DNA of 64,000 bases from NCBI GenBank assembly GCA_016871515.1, contig VHDE01000010.1:1-64000 (forward strand), written 5' to 3'. A program made the position numbers and the translations under genes. The DNA is from Verrucomicrobiota bacterium (GTDB taxonomy: Bacteria; Verrucomicrobiota; Verrucomicrobiia; Limisphaerales; SIBE01). A model generated the notes under the pieces. It saw nothing but the letters and a program-made list of their open reading frames with translations, did not search any database and was not told the origin of the DNA. Positions 5,583-48,352 of this stretch are shown here, piece by piece (the stretch's first letter is position 1; every line of letters starts with the position of its first letter).

Positions 5583-6746
5583 ATGTTTGACCCTCAACCT
5601 TGGGCCGCGGCGCCGTTTCATTTCTGGTCGGTGGTATTCTTCGTTCTCGGCTCGATGGTTGGGAGTTTGCTCAATGTCTGCATCCACCGCATGCCACGCG
5701 ATGAAAGTATTGTTTCCCCTGGTTCGCACTGCCCGCATTGCGGCTATGCGATTCCGTGGTTTTTAAACATTCCATTGCTTACCTGGCTTTATTTGCGCGG
5801 CAAATGCGCGAACTGCGCGGCGCCAATTTCGTTCCGCTATTTTCTCGTCGAGCTGCTGACAGGCGTCACGTTCCTGGGCGCCTGGCTCGCGCACGGCGCT
5901 CAATCGCCACTGCTGGCTTTGGCCTATTGCTTAGTGTTGTCCGGCTTCCTTGCAGCCACGTTCATCGACTTCGAACATTTCATCATTCCCGATCAAATCA
6001 CGCTGGGAGGAATCGCGGTGGGGTTTGTTTGCTCTGCCATCGTTCCGGCGCTGCACGCCGATCTATTTACCGGCGCCGTGCCGTCGGCGGCGCTGGCCTT
6101 GCGACGAAGCTTTCTCGGTATCTTGGTGGGCGGCGGATTGATTTACCTCATCTTGCGCATCGGAAAAATCTTGTTCGGCCGCCAAAGGTTCGCTCTTGAA
6201 CCGAACACGAAAGTCGTCTTTACCGAAACGGCGCTGCACCTGCCCGGCCAGGAAATTGCCTACGGCGATGTGTTTTATCGGAAGTCGGACGCGATTGCAT
6301 TCGAGGCGAAGAGCATTGAGTTGACAGACCGCTGCTATACTCATGTGGACGTGCGTCTGACACCGAGCCACCTCTGGGTTGGTGACGACAAATTCAATCC
6401 CGAAGAGATTCCTCGCATGGATGCAGTCACCGATCAGATTGTGTTGCCGCGCGAGGCGATGGGACTCGGTGATGTGAAATTCATGGCAGCGATCGGGGCG
6501 TTCCTCGGCTGGCAGGCCGTGATTTTTTCATTGATGCTCAGCGCGATGATTGGCGCGTTTGCAGGCTTGCTCTTGGTGGCATTGCGAAAGCAGGCTTGGT
6601 CGAGCCGTTTGCCGTACGGACCTTACATAGCGCTCGCAGCGACGCTCTGGATTTTTGCCGGCCATCCAATCGTCCATTGGTGGTTCAATGTTTTGAATCC
6701 TTGGCTGGCCCGGCAGTTGCAAGGGCTGCTTGGATTTGCGGTCTGA
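5583..6746 (+). CDS. Prepilin peptidase (A24 family) with interdomain insertion
   Basis: This membrane aspartyl protease and methyltransferase processes type IV pilin or type II secretion pseudopilins. The N-terminal domain carries the zinc-binding CPHC and CANC pairs between membrane segments. The catalytic aspartates appear as FIDFEHFIIPD and GLGDVKF. Between the two catalytic halves lies an insertion of about 100 residues (LFGRQRFALEP to MDAVTDQIVLP) that looks soluble and beta-rich. Classical PilD proteins are about 290 aa; this one is 387 aa. ATG 5583 is chosen because MFDPQPWAAAPFHFW leads directly into the first membrane segment; the ORF extends to 5532. No pilin gene is adjacent, so its substrates are elsewhere. 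Confidence 0.9.
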   Translation: MFDPQPWAAAPFHFWSVVFFVLGSMVGSLLNVCIHRMPRDESIVSPGSHCPHCGYAIPWFLNIPLLTWLYLRGKCANCAAPISFRYFLVELLTGVTFLGAWLAHGAQSPLLALAYCLVLSGFLAATFIDFEHFIIPDQITLGGIAVGFVCSAIVPALHADLFTGAVPSAALALRRSFLGILVGGGLIYLILRIGKILFGRQRFALEPNTKVVFTETALHLPGQEIAYGDVFYRKSDAIAFEAKSIELTDRCYTHVDVRLTPSHLWVGDDKFNPEEIPRMDAVTDQIVLPREAMGLGDVKFMAAIGAFLGWQAVIFSLMLSAMIGAFAGLLLVALRKQAWSSRLPYGPYIALAATLWIFAGHPIVHWWFNVLNPWLARQLQGLLGFAV

Positions 6747-6764
6747 GCGGTGACATTCAGAGAT

Positions 6765-6889
6765 CGTAGCGCAGACTTGCAGTCGGCATCGCGCCCGAAA
6801 AGATCGGGCAGTCTCGGTCCTTACGGATGCGCTGCAGAATGGAATTAAATGGAATTCTGCGATACAGCAGAGTGAAACTCCGCGCTACG
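6765..6889. repeat. Family B repeat, CGTAGCGCAGAC type, copy 1
   Basis: It begins CGTAGCGCAGAC and ends GCGCTACG, an inverted pair. In the middle it carries the hallmark CAGAATGGAATTAAATGGAATTCTG inner palindrome, here with GGAAT in place of the GTAT of copies B2 and B3. Confidence 0.75.
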
Positions 6890-6998
6890 TCGGTTCGAGC
6901 TGAAGGCCAGCATCGTTAGGCACGGCTCGCCTGAAAACGAGACTATGTGCAATCAGTCTATGGAAAGACTTCTCCGAAACAAAACTTCGCGCATTGAA

Positions 6999-7108
6999 CC
7001 CATGAACCTGAAGGCAGGGCGCGCCACTCCGTGCGCGCCGCCGCCGGCTTGCCCCATGGTCTTGCTCGGCGCGCACGGAGTGGCGCGCCCTGCCTTCAGG
7101 TTCATGGG
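6999..7108. repeat. Family A-type element with perfect 41 bp inverted repeat
   Basis: The left arm (6999-7039) begins CCCATGAACCTGAAGGCAGG. The right arm (7068-7108) is its exact reverse complement, ending CTGCCTTCAGGTTCATGGG. The loop is 28 nt. The termini match the CATGAACC/GGTTCATG ends of family A but the interior is different. The flank (TTCTCCGAAACA, GCGCATTG) is shared with copy A6. The right arm contains the likely start codon of the ceramidase-like gene (ATG 7104). Confidence 0.9.
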
Positions 7109-8507
7109 GAGGCGTAATACCATCTCGCGGCGGGCAGCGATCGAATTGCTCGGCTGCGCTGCGACCGGAGTTGTTTTGCCTGGCTGTGCGACGGCGCAAA
7201 GGCAGCCGCTGCGGCTCGCTGCGTTTAGCGCCGATGTCACTGTTCCGCAGGGCCATGGCATGATGGGCGGCGCATGGCTTTCAAAAAGCGTGGCTGATCC
7301 GCTCGAAGCGCACGGCTTTGTCTTACTGAGTGGCGAGGCGCCAGTTGTGTTCGTCTCCGTGGATTGGTGTGAGATTCGCAATGACGCATACGCGCGCTGG
7401 CAGACAGTCCTCGCTAACGCCGCTCACACCAGAACTGAGCGCGTGATGATTGCCACCGTGCATCAACACGACGCGCCGGTGGCTGATCTCGAAGCGGAAC
7501 GCATTTTGCGCAGTGGCAAGCTGGCGGGCACAGTGTGCGACTTGGAGTTTCACGAACGCGCGGTGCAAGCCGTGGCGCGTGCCCTCCGGAAGAGTCTGGC
7601 AAACGCAAAGCCAGTGACGCACATCGGCACGGGCCAAAGCAAAGTCGAGAAGATTGCTTCGAATCGCCGCTACCTGACGCCCGAGGGACGAGTGCGGTTT
7701 GATCGTACGAGCAGCACCCGCAACATCTTTGCGATCGACGCCGACGAGGGATTGATTGATCCATGGCTCAAGACGCTGAGCTTTTGGAATCGCGACATTC
7801 CACTCGCAGCGGTTAGCTTCTACGCCGTTCATCCGATGAGTTACTATGGGCAAGGCGAGGTCTCGGCGGATTTTCCCGGCCAGGCCCGGCGCCGCCGGCA
7901 ATCGGAGACGGCGGGGACAAAACAGATTTATTGCTCCGGCTGCAGCGGCAACGTAACGGCGGGCAAGTACAACAATGGCGCGCGCGAGAATCGCGTCGTG
8001 CTGGCCGATCGCCTTCACCAAGCCATGATCTCGGCTTGGCGCAACTCGACGAAACATTCTGTGCGCAGGACGGATTTTCGTGTTGCGAAGCTCCATCTTG
8101 AACCTCGCAATGACGCTGGCTTTGCGGTGGCTGAACTCGAACGGAAGCTGGAAATGGAGACCAGGCCGTTCCAGCAATGCCTGGCCGCGATGGGACTGAG
8201 CTGGCAACGCCGCGTCACTTCGGGCCGGCCTATCGAAGTGCCCGCGCTTGATTTCGGCGTCGCACAACTTCTTTTGCTGCCCGGCGAAGCTTACGTCGAA
8301 TTTCAGCTCGCCGCGCAACAGATGCGGCCTGATTCCTTTGTTTGCGTGGCAGGTTACGGTGACGGCGCCACGGGATACATACCCACAGAGAAGCACATCA
8401 CCGAAGATGACACTAATCTCGGCGACTGGTGCTGGGTCGCGCCAGGGAGCGAAGCCAGGCTTTTGGAAGCCATCGGCCGTGCCTTAAACAGCAAGCCACT
8501 TCAATAA
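7104..8507 (+). CDS. Neutral/alkaline ceramidase-like exported protein
   Basis: The mature region begins RLAAFSADVTVPQGHGMMGG, the typical opening of neutral ceramidase-like proteins. It continues with VSVDWCEIRND, ATVHQHDAP (metal-binding histidines), a VSFYAVHPMSYYGQGEVSADFPG block with the catalytic region, YCSGCSGNVTAGKYN, and LLLPGEAYVEFQ. The N-terminus has a Tat-like SRRAAIELLG followed by a lipobox-like VLPGCAT, so it is probably exported and possibly lipidated. At 467 aa it is shorter than ceramidases and lacks the C-terminal Ig-like domain. The amide substrate is unknown. The start codon lies in the right arm of a 41 bp inverted repeat; the ORF upstream of it is only translated repeat. 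Confidence 0.8.
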   Translation: MGRRNTISRRAAIELLGCAATGVVLPGCATAQRQPLRLAAFSADVTVPQGHGMMGGAWLSKSVADPLEAHGFVLLSGEAPVVFVSVDWCEIRNDAYARWQTVLANAAHTRTERVMIATVHQHDAPVADLEAERILRSGKLAGTVCDLEFHERAVQAVARALRKSLANAKPVTHIGTGQSKVEKIASNRRYLTPEGRVRFDRTSSTRNIFAIDADEGLIDPWLKTLSFWNRDIPLAAVSFYAVHPMSYYGQGEVSADFPGQARRRRQSETAGTKQIYCSGCSGNVTAGKYNNGARENRVVLADRLHQAMISAWRNSTKHSVRRTDFRVAKLHLEPRNDAGFAVAELERKLEMETRPFQQCLAAMGLSWQRRVTSGRPIEVPALDFGVAQLLLLPGEAYVEFQLAAQQMRPDSFVCVAGYGDGATGYIPTEKHITEDDTNLGDWCWVAPGSEARLLEAIGRALNSKPLQ

Positions 8508-9715: not shown

Positions 9716-9749
9716 AGTTCACAGAGACAGGCGAGACGCGTGTCCTACT
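9716..9749. repeat. Family A repeat, right-half fragment
   Basis: GAGTTCACAGAGACAGGCGAGACGCGTGTCC matches the right half of family A. The TAG stop codon of the CrtI-like gene (complement of 9745-9747) lies inside it, so the repeat may have set the C-terminus of that gene. Confidence 0.7.
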
Positions 9750-11313
9750 TCAGGCCCAGATCAGCCAGGATAACTTGGGCGCAGTTGTAGCCGGGCAACC
9801 CGGTGATGTTGCCTCCCGGATGACAACTGCCGCCGCACAAGTACAATCCTTTGAAATGGCCTCTGTAATGGCCAGCCCCCGGGAACGGTCGATGATATCC
9901 AACTTGCCCATGATTGAACGCGCCGACTAGCAGGTCGCCGAATCTCATGTTGGGCAAGGTCCGCTCGACGTCCAACGGGCTGGCGGTGAATTCTTCGATC
10001 AGTGCGTCTCCAATATTCGGAGCAAATTTTTGCCAATGCGAAAGCATGGCCTTGCCGTGCTCATGCTTGACTGCATCCCAACGTTTCGGATCGCCCTGCA
10101 ATCGATAGGGAAGCTTCTCCCACATGAATGCGGCATGCCGGTCGCGTGGCGCTTGGGACGAGTCAAAGATCGTCGGGCACGAACCCCACATGACCGTGGG
10201 CGGAAAAGCGCCCGCTTCGTGGTGCTTGACGATTTCTTCAAATTGTTCCGGCCGGTCGAGTCCGAGGATCACCATGAACGCACGCTCGAGTTCGGGATGT
10301 TTTTGAGCGGCGGAGTATCTCGGCGGTTCGCGCAGGTTGACGTTTAACGCAAAGAGCGGCGCGAGCAGGTTGTATTGAAAATTGCGGACCTTCGTGAGCC
10401 AATCGCTCGGCGGCAAAGATTCGTCGATCAGTTCGAGAAAAGTCTGATGCGGATTGAGGCCCGAAGCAACGAACTGGCGAGCTCGAATGACTTCGCCGTC
10501 GGCTGTTTCCACACCGATGACCCGATCCGACTGGATCAGAATGCGCCGTGGCTTGACATTGACGTGGACGTTCCCCCCCGCATTTTGGATCGCCGCGACG
10601 AGAGCCTCCGCAAGTTTTCTCGAACCCCCAATGCACATTTGCGCCATACGCCCGCTCGCGAGCAGCGCAGGGATATGATGCCCAAAGCCGCGACAGCGCA
10701 AGTCTACCTCGCGCAGGCCGTTAAAGAAGAGCAAGCCCGCTTGCACGATCGGATGCTCGAATTCACGGAGCACGAATTCCAGCGGAGACAACGCGCTGAC
10801 CTCAAGCAGCAATCGTCCTTCAGCGCTCTGCGAGAGTAACGAGCGTCGCTGATCGAACGGCACCGGCGGCGCTTGCGCTTCCGGAATCAGAATGTTCGTA
10901 ACGATCGGGCGGAACCTGTGGCACCAATGTTGGACCGTGCCGGCATCTTTGCGAGAGAACTGTGCGACAGACGCCACGGTCTTTTCAAAATCAGTCCACC
11001 ATTCGAGCACGCGCCCGTCGCTGGCTATGAGTGCGACGTTCAGATCTGGCTCGATGTACTCAGCTCCGTAGCGTTTGAGTTCGAGGTCTGCGTACCACGG
11101 CATATGAGTGATGCCGCGGTGATAGAATGAATGCGTGTTATGAAAGAAACCGGAGCCAGGCGGTTGCTCGATCGTGGCCAAACCGCCGCCGGCCAGATCG
11201 CGCGGCTCCAAACAGAGCGTCGTTAACCCTGCACGCGCCAGATACGCCTGCAGAATTAAGCTATTGTGGCCCGCGCCAAGGAGAATGGCATCGTATTCGT
11301 CATGAGCGATCAC
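9745..11313 (-). CDS. FAD-dependent oxidoreductase, phytoene desaturase (CrtI)-like
   Basis: The protein opens with a dinucleotide-binding motif, YDAILLGAGHNSLILQAYLARAGL, followed by LCLEPRDLAGGG. It closes with GLYLCGGSCHPGGNITGLPGYNCAQVIL, the typical FAD-contacting C-terminus of CrtI/NAD(P)-FAD amine-oxidase-type proteins. The middle contains GGSRKLAEALVAAIQNAGGNV, also characteristic. At 522 aa from GTG 11313 it is full length. The ORF extends to 11478, but that part is translated family A repeat. No other carotenoid gene is nearby, so the substrate is uncertain; many such relatives act on other polyenes or lipids. Confidence 0.85.
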   Translation of the reverse strand: MIAHDEYDAILLGAGHNSLILQAYLARAGLTTLCLEPRDLAGGGLATIEQPPGSGFFHNTHSFYHRGITHMPWYADLELKRYGAEYIEPDLNVALIASDGRVLEWWTDFEKTVASVAQFSRKDAGTVQHWCHRFRPIVTNILIPEAQAPPVPFDQRRSLLSQSAEGRLLLEVSALSPLEFVLREFEHPIVQAGLLFFNGLREVDLRCRGFGHHIPALLASGRMAQMCIGGSRKLAEALVAAIQNAGGNVHVNVKPRRILIQSDRVIGVETADGEVIRARQFVASGLNPHQTFLELIDESLPPSDWLTKVRNFQYNLLAPLFALNVNLREPPRYSAAQKHPELERAFMVILGLDRPEQFEEIVKHHEAGAFPPTVMWGSCPTIFDSSQAPRDRHAAFMWEKLPYRLQGDPKRWDAVKHEHGKAMLSHWQKFAPNIGDALIEEFTASPLDVERTLPNMRFGDLLVGAFNHGQVGYHRPFPGAGHYRGHFKGLYLCGGSCHPGGNITGLPGYNCAQVILADLGLK

Positions 11314-11372
11314 GACAGCTCTTTTAAACGATAAAACCGCCGGTGACGATTCGATCCGGCGCGACAGTTCTC

Positions 11373-11525
11373 CCCATGAACCTGCGCGGTAGGATAGGCG
11401 TCCCGCCTGTCCTGCTTTTGGTGTGCGCAGATGCAGAACAGGCGGGACGCCCTGTCCTGCCACGTTCATGGGGCGCAATGCGCGAAACGTTGTTTCGGAG
11501 GAATCTTTCCATGAACCTCGCAGGG
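11373..11525. repeat. Family A palindromic repeat, copy 6, with flanking module
   Basis: The core runs from CCATGAACCTGCGCGGTAGG to CACGTTCATGG at 11471, with GCGTCCCGCCTGTCC and its inverse GGACAGGCGGGACGC. The loop is in opposite orientation to A1/A2. It is followed by the module GCGCAATGCGCGAAACG...TTTCGGAGGAATCTTTCCATGAACC. The reverse complement of that module flanks copy A4 at 6960-7008. Confidence 0.85.
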
Positions 11526-15775: not shown

Positions 15776-16538
15776 GAACTATCTCCAGCCAAGTTCCACC
15801 AACACCGTCTCGGGCGCGCGAGAGGAACCGCGATAATGATCGCGGTTCCTTGCCCCGGCTGGCTTGTGATTGCGATTTCGCCGCCAAGATCCGCCGCGCG
15901 CCGGCGCAAGCTTTTCACGCCGTGGCCGAAGCTCGTGCCTGAGGTTTGGAATCCACATCCATTATCCGACACTGTGAGATGAAATTTTCCCGCGTCCGTT
16001 TGAATCCGAATGGCCACGCGCATCGCTCGAGAATGTTTGACGATATTATGGAGTATTTCTTTAAACATCAGAGAAACACGTTCCGGTGAAATTCAATTGG
16101 CAGCCTGATTGAAGATTGATGCTGCGGCGCCTCGAATGAGTAATCTCGTCCGGTCAGAGACAACGTGGCAACCTCGCGCATACGCCGAATCATGTCTGCC
16201 AGATTGTCGAAATCGGGATTCGTGAACCAAACGATGTTGCGCACGGTGGTCCCGGTCTGGCTGGCCAGTCGGCAGATTTCCATCAACTCTTGACGCTGCG
16301 CCGCGGGGACGGCCGGGTCGTTCTGCAACAGTTCAGTGTTTAGGCCAATGCTGCCGATGTTGGCGCCGAGCTCATCATGCAGATCACCCGCGATCCGCAA
16401 GCGCAGACGATTGACCGCTTCAAGTTGGACGATACGCCATCTATAAACGACCCAGGCAACAGCCGGCGTGAGGAGGCTCTGAAGTCTCCATATGATGGCC
16501 GGCGAACAAATGAGCCTCCTCACGCCGGCTGCTGCCAA
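15769..16538 (-). pseudogene. Histidine kinase remnant (HisKA_3 + HATPase_c), 5'-truncated and frameshifted
   Basis: The first frame (16538-16068) begins in repeat sequence, then shows the end of a membrane segment (VAWVVYRWRI) and the dimerisation/phosphoacceptor helix AGDLHDELGANIGSIGLNTELL. It runs to FHRNVFL and stops. The second frame (16068-15769) resumes at once with FKEILHNIVKHSRA (N box), DNGCGF and GHGVKSLRRRAADLGGEI (G boxes). The frames join at TGATG, so either one base is lost or the two domains are now separate, coupled proteins. The N-terminal sensor, often a two-component propeller plus Y_Y_Y domain in this phylum, is missing. The break coincides with inverted repeat E2. Confidence 0.8.
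16461..16530. repeat. Family E inverted repeat, copy 2
   Basis: The arms AGCCGGCGTGAGGAGGCTC (16461-16479) and GAGCCTCCTCACGCCGGCT (16512-16530) are perfect 19 bp inverses. The sequence is close to copy E1 at 20050 (AGCCGAGGTAACGAGGCTC). It sits exactly where kinase homology begins. Confidence 0.85.
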
Positions 16539-20049: not shown

Positions 20050-20148
20050 GTAGCAGCCGAGGTAACGAGGCTCTGATTTGATTCGAAAACCGGCCATAAT
20101 CCCAGCCCTGACAAAGCGATTTCAGAGCCTCGTTACCTCGGCTGCTAC
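20050..20148. repeat. Family E inverted repeat, copy 1, perfect 27 bp arms
   Basis: The arms at 20050-20076 (GTAGCAGCCGAGGTAACGAG onward) and 20122-20148 are exact reverse complements separated by 45 nt. The copy lies upstream of the EgtD-like start. The fragment GTAGCAGCCGA also occurs just after the DUF1501 gene near 37657. Confidence 0.92.
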
Positions 20149-33354: not shown

Positions 33355-33434
33355 GCGTAGCGCAGACTTTCATTCTACTGTATCGCAGAATTGTATTAAT
33401 TGTATTCTGCGGATCGCCCGCAAGTTCGAGCGCC
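33355..33434. repeat. Family B repeat, copy 2
   Basis: It contains CGTAGCGCAGACTTTC, GTATCGCAGAATTGTATTAA, ATTGTATTCTGCGGA and CCGCAAGTTCGAGCG, shared with copy 3 at 48264. The remaining gap to 33652 has no gene. Confidence 0.85.
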
Positions 33435-37651: not shown

Positions 37652-39201
37652 CACCGTAGCAGCCGATGTCAAAGTTTGCGCTCGGGTCGCCGCAGATTTG
37701 AAATTCGAAATCCGAAACAATCCTGCCCGGACTTCGCTTGCCTGGATGTCTTTGATGCGCATTGGCGCTCGGCGGCTAACGAAAAAGGTGAGCGACCGCC
37801 GCTGACCCCGCGCTTGCGCATGCGCCTTTACTTGGGCGGGTGGTTCTGGGCAGTTTGTAGGCTTTGCGCGCGTGCGCACCTTTGGCTGCGCCGCGTAAAG
37901 GGCCTTTGGTGGGAGTCGATTCTGGGCGTGATCTAAAACCCTAGCAGGACGCTTGCTCCGGGACTTTCTACGCGGCTGGCTCCATCTGGCGGCCAAAGTG
38001 CGGGCCAATCGCGTGCGCGCTCTGCTGAAAGAACCACCCTTGCTCACCACTCAAGAGCAACAGACCTGGAAGCTGCCGCCAACGATTGAGCCGCGCGGTC
38101 CAGCTCCGGCCTCCAATCCGGCCGAGGCAGGACCGCGCTGTCCTTGTTGCCGCAAACCGATGCGCCTGGTGGCCGCTTGGGCGGCGGGACACCGAGCACC
38201 GCTCCCGTGCTGGCCCAATCGTCCGCCATGAGATCACGCCCGCGCCCAATAGAGTTTTCCTTTCCCACGAGCTGTCTTGTGCACCGATGGACTCTGCCCG
38301 CGCGCCGAATTTTGTGCCTGAAGCTGCTAAACAATCACTGCCCGTGCGTGCGGCCAGAGCGCTGGAGCAGCGGCCACCATTCTCCAGAACCACTCAAAAG
38401 GTTCCTGGTCCAGCGGTCCTTGGGCTCAGGGCGTAAGACCAAACGAAAACCTTCCGCAAGGAGCTAAGCCTTCAGGGCCACGGGTTATCGGCCGCGGCTT
38501 CGTTCAATCAGGGAATGCAAATAACCCGGAGTGAAGCGATCGTGCTCTCGCACAAATCGTCCCCCTCTGCCGCTTCACTCCGGGTTATCTACATTCCTTC
38601 TTTTGTTAGACGACCTATTCTGAACCCTCTCATCTCTCGTCAGGTTCGACTCGACTATCGCACCGGATCGCCCAGCGTCAAAATCGATTTCCTCCGCCGC
38701 GCCAACTCCGCCGCATCCCGTGGACGCCGTCCAGCGCAATCTCTCCGCCGAGCGCCATTCTCTGCTCTCGATCTCCCGCGGCGCTCGAATCCGACAACCC
38801 GTATTGAATCTGCCGCGAGCCATTCAAGTTCTGACCCCTGAGCGCCCACTCGCAAGGGCGTCTAACGACCAAGGTCAGGCACGGCGGAACTGGATGCCAC
38901 CATCAACCCGAACGCGCTCCCCGCCGTTGCCTGCACCGTTCTTCGTTCGGCTTTCCCGTCGGCCGAGGACGCGACCACCTCTGATGACCATCCGTGTAAT
39001 CCGTGCAATCCGTGGTCAATACAAAAGGCAGACTGAACCACGGATGACACGGATAACCCGGATCGATGTGTTGCTCTCACGACATCCTCTCCGGGTTCCG
39101 CCGAACGACGGAACTGAGCGCCGCGAGCGGCCAAGTGCGTCCGCATTGGCAATCGATATGGCCCGCTCGCGTTCGCTCCAGTGATCTGGTTCGGCACGTT
39201 T
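37652..39201. other. Gene-poor 1.5 kb region with repeats and possible transposase debris
   Basis: No intact gene is seen. Plus ORF 37953-38231 contains GPRCPCCRKPMRLV, a two-Cys-pair motif resembling the end of some transposases or zinc-ribbon proteins, but flanking frames do not extend the homology, so it may be debris. The K inverted repeat lies at 38512-38597. Near 38992-39060 there are CCGTGTAATCCGTG and CCACGGATGACACGGAT inverse motifs. Near 37657 there is a GTAGCAGCCGA fragment of family E. Confidence 0.4.
38512..38597. repeat. Inverted repeat K, ATAACCCGGAGTGAAGCG arms
   Basis: The 27 bp arms at 38512-38538 and 38571-38597 differ at two positions, sharing ATAACCCGGAGTGAAGCG, with a 32 nt loop. 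Confidence 0.85.
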
Positions 39202-39615: not shown

Positions 39616-39682
39616 GGATTCAAGGTTGCGTAGGGCACCGAGGTCGCCGGGGCTCGGTTCGTCTTTCTGATAAGCCTGCTTC

Positions 39683-39745
39683 GTGTCGCTTCGGCAAGCG
39701 TGCTCAACGGACTGCCGGTGTTGAGCACGCTTGCCGAAGCGGCAC
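39683..39745. repeat. Inverted repeat L at a junction of two truncated ORFs
   Basis: The 26 bp arms at 39683-39708 and 39720-39745 (GTTGAGCACGCTTGCCGAAG on the right) have one mismatch and an 11 nt loop. Integrase homology begins directly after the right arm. The HEPN-like ORF is broken on the left. Confidence 0.88.
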
Positions 39746-40018
39746 GTTGATCCACGCACGGGCAAGCAGCGACGGCATCACGCCAACGAAACAGGGCTAC
39801 AACGAGCGGTCAAAGAAGCGTTGCGCCTGGCGAATATTCTAAAACCAGCCAGTTGCCATTCCTTGCGGCAGAGTTTTGCGACGCATTTGCTGGAAACTGG
39901 CTATGACATCCGCACGGTGCAGGAACTATTGGGACACGAGAGTGTGGAGACGACGCAGATTTACACGCACGTGATGCAGCGGCCCGGTTTGGGGGTTAAG
40001 AGTCCCTTGGATGGGTAA
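39746..40018 (+). pseudogene. Integron-type tyrosine recombinase, C-terminal remnant
   Basis: The sequence [31 protein letters not shown] followed by [40 protein letters not shown] and GLGVKSPLD is the C-terminal catalytic part of an integron integrase (IntI type). It has the HxxR histidine/arginine (CHSLR), the LLGH histidine and the nucleophile tyrosine (IYTHV). The first two-thirds, including the first catalytic arginine and the IntI-specific insertion, are absent. Homology starts exactly at the end of hairpin L. No intact attI or cassette array was found, so this is a dead relic. Confidence 0.88.
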
Positions 40019-48011: not shown

Positions 48012-48263
48012 GGAGCCGCGGTGTGGTGGGGGATTATCGGGTTTATGGTTAGTTACACTTGTTACATGACGTCGCACCGCCAGTTGGCAGATGAATTTCG
48101 CGAGGTTGCTTCGAAGCAATTCGTTCGCTTGACATGGGCGAGAGGCGAAAAGCGACGCACACGCAGGCCGCGATCCTTCGCGCACCGTCTTGTTATGCCG
48201 CAACAAAGGTCGCTGTCGTAAATCCAAGATCACGGAGTGCGTGTCTAGCGCACCTGCCTTCGT

Positions 48264-48352
48264 CGTAACGCAGACTTTCAGTCTGCTGTATCGCAGCTGT
48301 ATCGCAGAATTGTATTAAATTGTATTCTGCGGACCGTCCGCAAGTTCGGGCG
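48264..48352. repeat. Family B repeat, copy 3
   Basis: It contains CGTAACGCAGACTTTCAGTC, TGTATCGCAGAATTGTATTA, AATTGTATTCTGCGGA and CCGCAAGTTCGGGCG. It directly abuts a truncated PRC-barrel fragment. Confidence 0.9.

Follow-up and report, generated by a model that had tools for sequence, protein, structure and literature searches.

A REPIN/MITE-like composite element probably supplies the start codon of an exported-protein gene in a verrucomicrobial genome

Comparison of sequences from a member of the Verrucomicrobiota suggests that a mobile REPIN/MITE-like insertion probably now supplies the start codon and codons 2–3 of a gene for an exported, ceramidase-like protein, and that at least three more exported-protein genes of the same genome have been captured in a similar manner. 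The first of these genes is located in a stretch of 64,000 nucleotides, analysed at its full length and referred to below as the window. The features discussed are collected in Table 1.

Table 1. Coordinates of the composite element, of the gene that follows it, and of other genes with apparently captured starts. Positions without a locus label are those of the window.
Feature	Position	Strand	Remarks
Upstream in-frame ATGs (6945 and 6960)	6945..6962	+	Frame stays open across the entire element
Composite mobile element, about 150 bp	6962..7111	+	Delimited by end-conservation profiles over genome copies
Constant left module, GGAAAGACTTCTCCGAAACAAAACTTCGCGCATTGAACCCATGAACC	6962..7008	+	Precedes many different payload hairpins genome-wide
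Left arm of inverted repeat	6999..7040	+	Repeat search
First REP: tag GCAG, then hairpin GGCGCGCCACTCCGTGCGCGCC	7014..7039	+	
In-frame ATG in hairpin spacer	7056..7058	+	Alternative start, 24 residues before RR
Right arm of inverted repeat, with ATG 7104 inside	7067..7108	+	Repeat search
Second REP, inverted	7068..7093	-	REPIN-like pair with the first REP; 28-nt inter-REP spacer
Constant right end, GGTTCATGGGGAG	7099..7111	+	Conservation drops after its last G
Putative ATG start codon	7104..7106	+	Codons 1–3 ATG GGG AGG = M-G-R
Ceramidase-like protein, predicted exported, 467 aa	7104..8507	+	Translation; stop at 8507
S-R-R of Tat motif, residues 8–10	7125..7133	+	ISRR kept in G001, G002 and G028
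Cys28, probable lipobox LPGC	7185..7187	+	Orthologue Cys at the matching place: FPGC (G001/G002), LPSC (G028)
Sulfatase	L309:1626		Start apparently inside element, MGRNALHTALAFLVATLPAVAA; read as MGRNALHTALAFLVATLPAVAASLPNVVMIVSDDQ
Small lipoprotein	L343	minus	MGRSFFQRLCALVILPLLLLAGGC; conserved in 26/40 genomes
VOC-domain protein	L438/L390		Reversed left module gives MGSMREILFRRSLS; native signal peptide from LALLLAPAILAQLPPG
Candidate fifth captured gene	L419/L443		Would use inner CCCATGAACC

The start of the ceramidase-like gene

A repeat search of the window revealed two arms that are 100% complementary over 42 nt and separated by a 26-nt spacer. The initial annotation had reported a perfect inverted repeat of 41 bp at this place; the repeat is indeed perfect, and the measured length of the arms is 42 nt. 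Their core, GCAGGGCGCGCCACTCCGTGCGCGCC, occurs twice in the window (shuffled sequences predict no occurrence), and both occurrences correspond to the arms. According to the folding calculation, this region would form an RNA hairpin of −130.7 kcal/mol (z = −11.7). An Rfam search gave no match at the gathering score; the only matches, all below threshold, were to microRNA models, which is expected for any long hairpin. In this draft genome of 246 contigs, an assembly error at the perfect hairpin is a residual possibility. Other near-perfect inverted repeats of 25–27 nt, with spacers of 11–45 nt, are present in the window at 20050-20148, 39682-39746, 38512-38597 and 16455-16536.

The right arm, which terminates with TTCATGGG, does contain ATG 7104, as had been noted from the sequence. 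The nucleotides ATG GGG AG are derived from the element, whose eroding boundary coincides with the final G of codon 3 (7112). The distance from this ATG to the twin arginine is 8 residues, and in most of the other RR-bearing orthologues the nearest start candidate precedes the RR by 3–9. A search for a downstream start revealed no in-frame ATG, GTG or TTG between ATG 7104 and codon 15, i.e. past the RR pair. The orthologues in two genomes of the same genus (G001 and G002) lack the element and start with MNQTSVISRRAAF, 27 nt past the stop codon of the same upstream gene, which encodes a type IV prepilin peptidase. The spacing, the orthologue starts and the lack of a downstream start therefore identify ATG 7104 as the best start, in agreement with the initial annotation, and we infer that initiation occurs there.

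The N-terminus of the window protein, MGRRNTISRRAAI, has the same Met-to-RR spacing of 8 as its congeneric counterparts and differs from them in residues 2–6 (MGRRNTISRR vs. MNQTSVISRR), which supports the earlier suggestion that the repeat supplies the N-terminus. In neither congener, where the gene lacks the repeat, does another ATG give rise to these N-terminal residues. The intergenic gap upstream of the gene is 357 nt long in the window vs. 27 nt in the congeners, whose intergenic DNA is too diverged to align, and no exact empty site was found in these two genomes. The same gap of the window contains a member of a further dispersed repeat family (6768-6898, with matches at 33356-33432 and 48261-48352).

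The twin arginine occupies residues 9–10; the initial annotation had placed a Tat motif right after the start. The protein read from ATG 7104 also contains a hydrophobic stretch and, as in the orthologues, a conserved Cys, and on the basis of this signal it is probably a Tat-exported lipoprotein. The designation "ceramidase-like" proved to be weak: the match to PF04734 (26.4 bits) falls below the Pfam gathering cut-off of 32.1, and no NCBIfam family was matched. The gene is intact, with codon-position differences to G001 of 0.19/0.12/0.54 and 75% identity to the congeners, and, judged by these comparisons, it is evolving under constraint. In two members of the family it adjoins a sulfatase gene (G003:C90:16898-19409 and G007:C29:5933-8675); the orthologue of this sulfatase is found on another contig of the genome studied here (L309), where its own start also appears to be captured.

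Anatomy and spread of the composite element

Stretches around the element ends were examined throughout the genome. The left module reads GGAGAGACTTCTCCGAAACAnnnnTTCGCGCATTGnnCCCATGAACC, and the space between this module and GGTTCATGGGGAG is occupied by several unrelated payload hairpins. The genome contains 90 left modules with ≤3 mismatches; a right end is within reach in 71 of them, and the ATG has been kept there in 61 of these 71. The right end retains CATGGGGAG regardless of the left flank. CCCATGAACC and GGTTCATGGG are inverted to each other, and the left module runs a further 37 nt without a partner. At the loci examined, the arms of the type present in the window consisted of a short palindrome with a tag on one side, as in REPs of the GTAG class (GTAG in 9, GCAG in 10 and neither in 1); the window copy has GCAG. 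Inverted REP pairs (n = 7) were each 76 nt long, with a spacer of 28 nt in all. At L026 and L014, REP arms were found outside the constant frame, so that the frame and the REP pair can exist separately. We read the palindrome as the paired REPs at the core of a non-autonomous element of REPIN/MITE-like type. A clean target-site duplication could not be demonstrated: GGAG/ATGG is common to many sites, but without covariation.

A second composite element of the window, with the same frame and another payload, is located at 11370-11510 (-), where the 9745-11478 (-) ORF begins. It is open in frame with this ORF, whose native GTG start lies approximately 64 nt downstream of the element ATG.

Left modules with ≤2 mismatches numbered 67 in this genome vs. 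0–3 per genome in 292 others of the order, and the exact right end was found 78 times here and not at all in the two congeners; many further families of the order have it in low copy number. Related genomes with the right end include G010, G050, G061 and G068. These counts indicate an expansion specific to the lineage, and the insertion at 6962-7111 would thus be later than the split from G001/G002. The genome carries five Y1_Tnp genes. Among eight Y1-transposase loci inspected (including three of these five) there was no RAYT flanked by an element of the window type; mobilisation of the element is presumably of the RAYT/IS200 type.

Many copies (e.g. L002, L076 and L079) were found within another dispersed repeat (CCCTCTCCCCATCGGATGG^GGAGAGGGTTAGGGAGAGGGG), which is apparently a favoured target. 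The titles of the public records behind L181, L186 and L203 (Akkermansia muciniphila, Klebsiella pneumoniae) disagree with the sequences and appear to be misassigned. We also looked for a bias of the elements, in orientation or distance, towards gene starts, and this was rejected (right ends: 45 codirectional and 61 convergent; left ends: 27 and 37). Taken together, the copies of this family therefore do not constitute a gene-start device.

Captured gene starts and alternative explanations

By reading the element ends into their flanks we identified three more genes, and one candidate, whose start apparently lies inside an element end (Table 1). In the case of the VOC-domain protein, the orthologues in three other genomes (G003, G004 and G006) have short ends of their own (MTKLL, MRSIL and MRFIA, respectively), and for both this gene and the sulfatase gene the element sequence extends several codons beyond the ATG. 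All of the captured genes appear to encode exported proteins. In frame, four matches were obtained (six when starts inside the element are counted) vs. one and two in the shifted-frame controls; for one of the four (L427) the signal peptide looks spurious. The excess over the controls is thus modest, and the case for capture rests on the homology of the individual genes.

Five other loci (L315, L162, L335, L393 and L291) were rejected as captures: the frame from element to gene is open, but an intact native start is present downstream. At L430:1363-1630 the element lies directly 5′ of a clear signal-peptide gene, with no ATG, GTG or TTG between them; reading back across the element, the frame remains open as far as an upstream ATG, as if the element had inserted in frame within the n-region. 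At L135, L084, L322 and L003 the GGGGAGG of the right end is located just 5′ of the ATG of the downstream gene (by eye, rhamnose isomerase-like, squalene synthase-like, agmatine deiminase-like and ABC permease-like products, respectively), where it may act as an element-donated Shine-Dalgarno-like sequence.

The proposed course of events is as follows. The element would have expanded in this lineage and inserted between the prepilin-peptidase gene and the gene of the exported enzyme, with its right end placed exactly at the beginning of the latter. The start and codons 2–3 would then come from the element (M-G-R, the positive charge of which suits the n-region of a signal peptide), followed by native sequence from approximately codon 4. 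An n-region requires no more than Met and positive charge, which is probably why such captures are tolerated. As for ribosome access, the transcript would most likely begin within the right arm or close to it, or else expression would be low.

An alternative, which we consider possible but doubtful, is that the native gene already had ATGG at this place and that the element, which would prefer such sites, did no more than duplicate or overlay an existing start. This would fit the start-to-RR spacing of 8 shared by the window and both congeners, as well as the left flank, CT-ATGG, which immediately precedes the element. The left edge of many other copies likewise reads ATGG or GATGG, and in the window the left ATGG (6960) and the right ATGG (7104) are in frame, 144 nt apart. 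However, the constancy of the right end under any left flank makes it element sequence now, and in the VOC and sulfatase cases the element-derived sequence continues for several codons after the ATG.

It is unlikely that the protein is instead N-extended, with a start at ATG 6945, 6960 or 7056 and translation through the element, as in the Rickettsia palindromic elements. Such a product is conceivable: no stop interrupts the frame between 6876 and the end of the element, open frames are formed by further copies of the element as well, ATG 7056 is situated in the loop region, and hairpins can be melted by ribosomes during elongation. Its twin arginine, however, would be 24 to approximately 60 residues from the start, and in most RR-bearing orthologues the nearest start candidate precedes the RR by 3–9 residues.

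With donation of the start by the element as the preferred reading, the effect of the hairpin on initiation has to be considered. RNA folding calculations gave an unpaired probability of 0.001 for AUG 7104 when the whole hairpin is transcribed, and the AUG became open (approximately 0.6) only when the 5′ end of the transcript was placed inside the right arm; in the same calculation the initiation region of the congeners was mostly open. The AUG being predicted to be paired in a full-hairpin transcript, transcription would start inside the right arm or expression would be low. No Shine-Dalgarno-like purine run was found at normal spacing 5′ of ATG 7104, and a simple sigma-70 promoter scan of positions 6700-7200 revealed no promoter-like site. 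Control of initiation by the hairpin, as proposed in the initial annotation, is possible according to this folding model, which can equally well be taken to mean silencing.

Silencing would mean that the insertion shut the gene off and that a pseudogene is in the making. The buried AUG and the promoter scan are compatible with this, and a recent insertion would show no decay yet; nevertheless, the 467 intact codons, the identity to the congeners and the strong third-position bias of the changes make such an outcome improbable. That the hairpin is a device selected to control initiation (thermosensor-like, or a leader processed by RNase III) is very unlikely, since, for all its extreme stability, the AUG within its stem and the precedent of such mRNA processing in the Neisseria NEMIS elements (PMC2229807), it belongs to a dispersed repeat with no orientation bias to genes and with most copies off start codons, and the arrangement is not conserved in the congeners.

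If start donation by the element is correct, comparative sequence shows a route by which conserved genes can acquire their 5′ end from a mobile repeat that is short and non-coding; capture is probably survivable because the n-region of signal peptides is tolerant. Four genes in one genome would offer a concrete, repeated case against which to examine the view of REP-type repeats as mere extragenic passengers, and N-termini beside such elements may be wrongly placed when starts are called automatically. We raise, as a speculative and rather doubtful extension, that the element ends are ready-made start and n-region modules (M-G-R at one end and M-R-E-I-L-F-R-R at the other), by which the family would repeatedly rewrite exported N-termini, and perhaps expression, and thereby spread at gene starts.

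Comparison with known systems

In a short literature search, which covered few subscription journals, we did not find a description of the donation of a start codon and n-region by element ends, and it is the repeated donation of these that seems to be new. REPINs and BIMEs consist of paired, inverted REPs (Bertels and Rainey, PMC3116915). The element described here resembles them in having two inverted, tagged REPs with a short spacer, in its many, mostly extragenic copies, and in the presence of Y1 (RAYT-type) genes in the genome; it differs in its constant frame (left module plus GGTTCATGGGGAG), which holds several unrelated payloads, and in that no adjacent RAYT was found. It is thus a candidate member of the REPINs: the tag and the inverted pair speak for membership, whereas the constant frame and the lack of a RAYT link do not.

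REPs of the GTAG class have been reported from another verrucomicrobium, Opitutus terrae (PMC3733652). The REPs analysed here likewise have a G+C-rich palindrome immediately preceded by GTAG, or in this genome also by GCAG, but they differ in sequence family, composite frame and gene-start capture, and their place among the 24 published classes is putative.

Two other systems combine palindromic elements with coding sequences. At the Yersinia locus YPO1552, a putative exported protein owes part of its signal peptide to the palindromic mobile element YPAL/RU-2 (PMC2229807). This small element contributes a hydrophobic stretch, whereas the terminus of the element described here would give the start codon and the n-region, and would do so in at least four genes. 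The Rickettsia palindromic elements are found in frame and fused to host genes (PMC2229807, PMC10969869); they are likewise palindromic elements of approximately 150 bp with open frames. They are located inside conserved coding genes and are translated through, in contrast to the present case, in which the host protein would begin at the end of the element.
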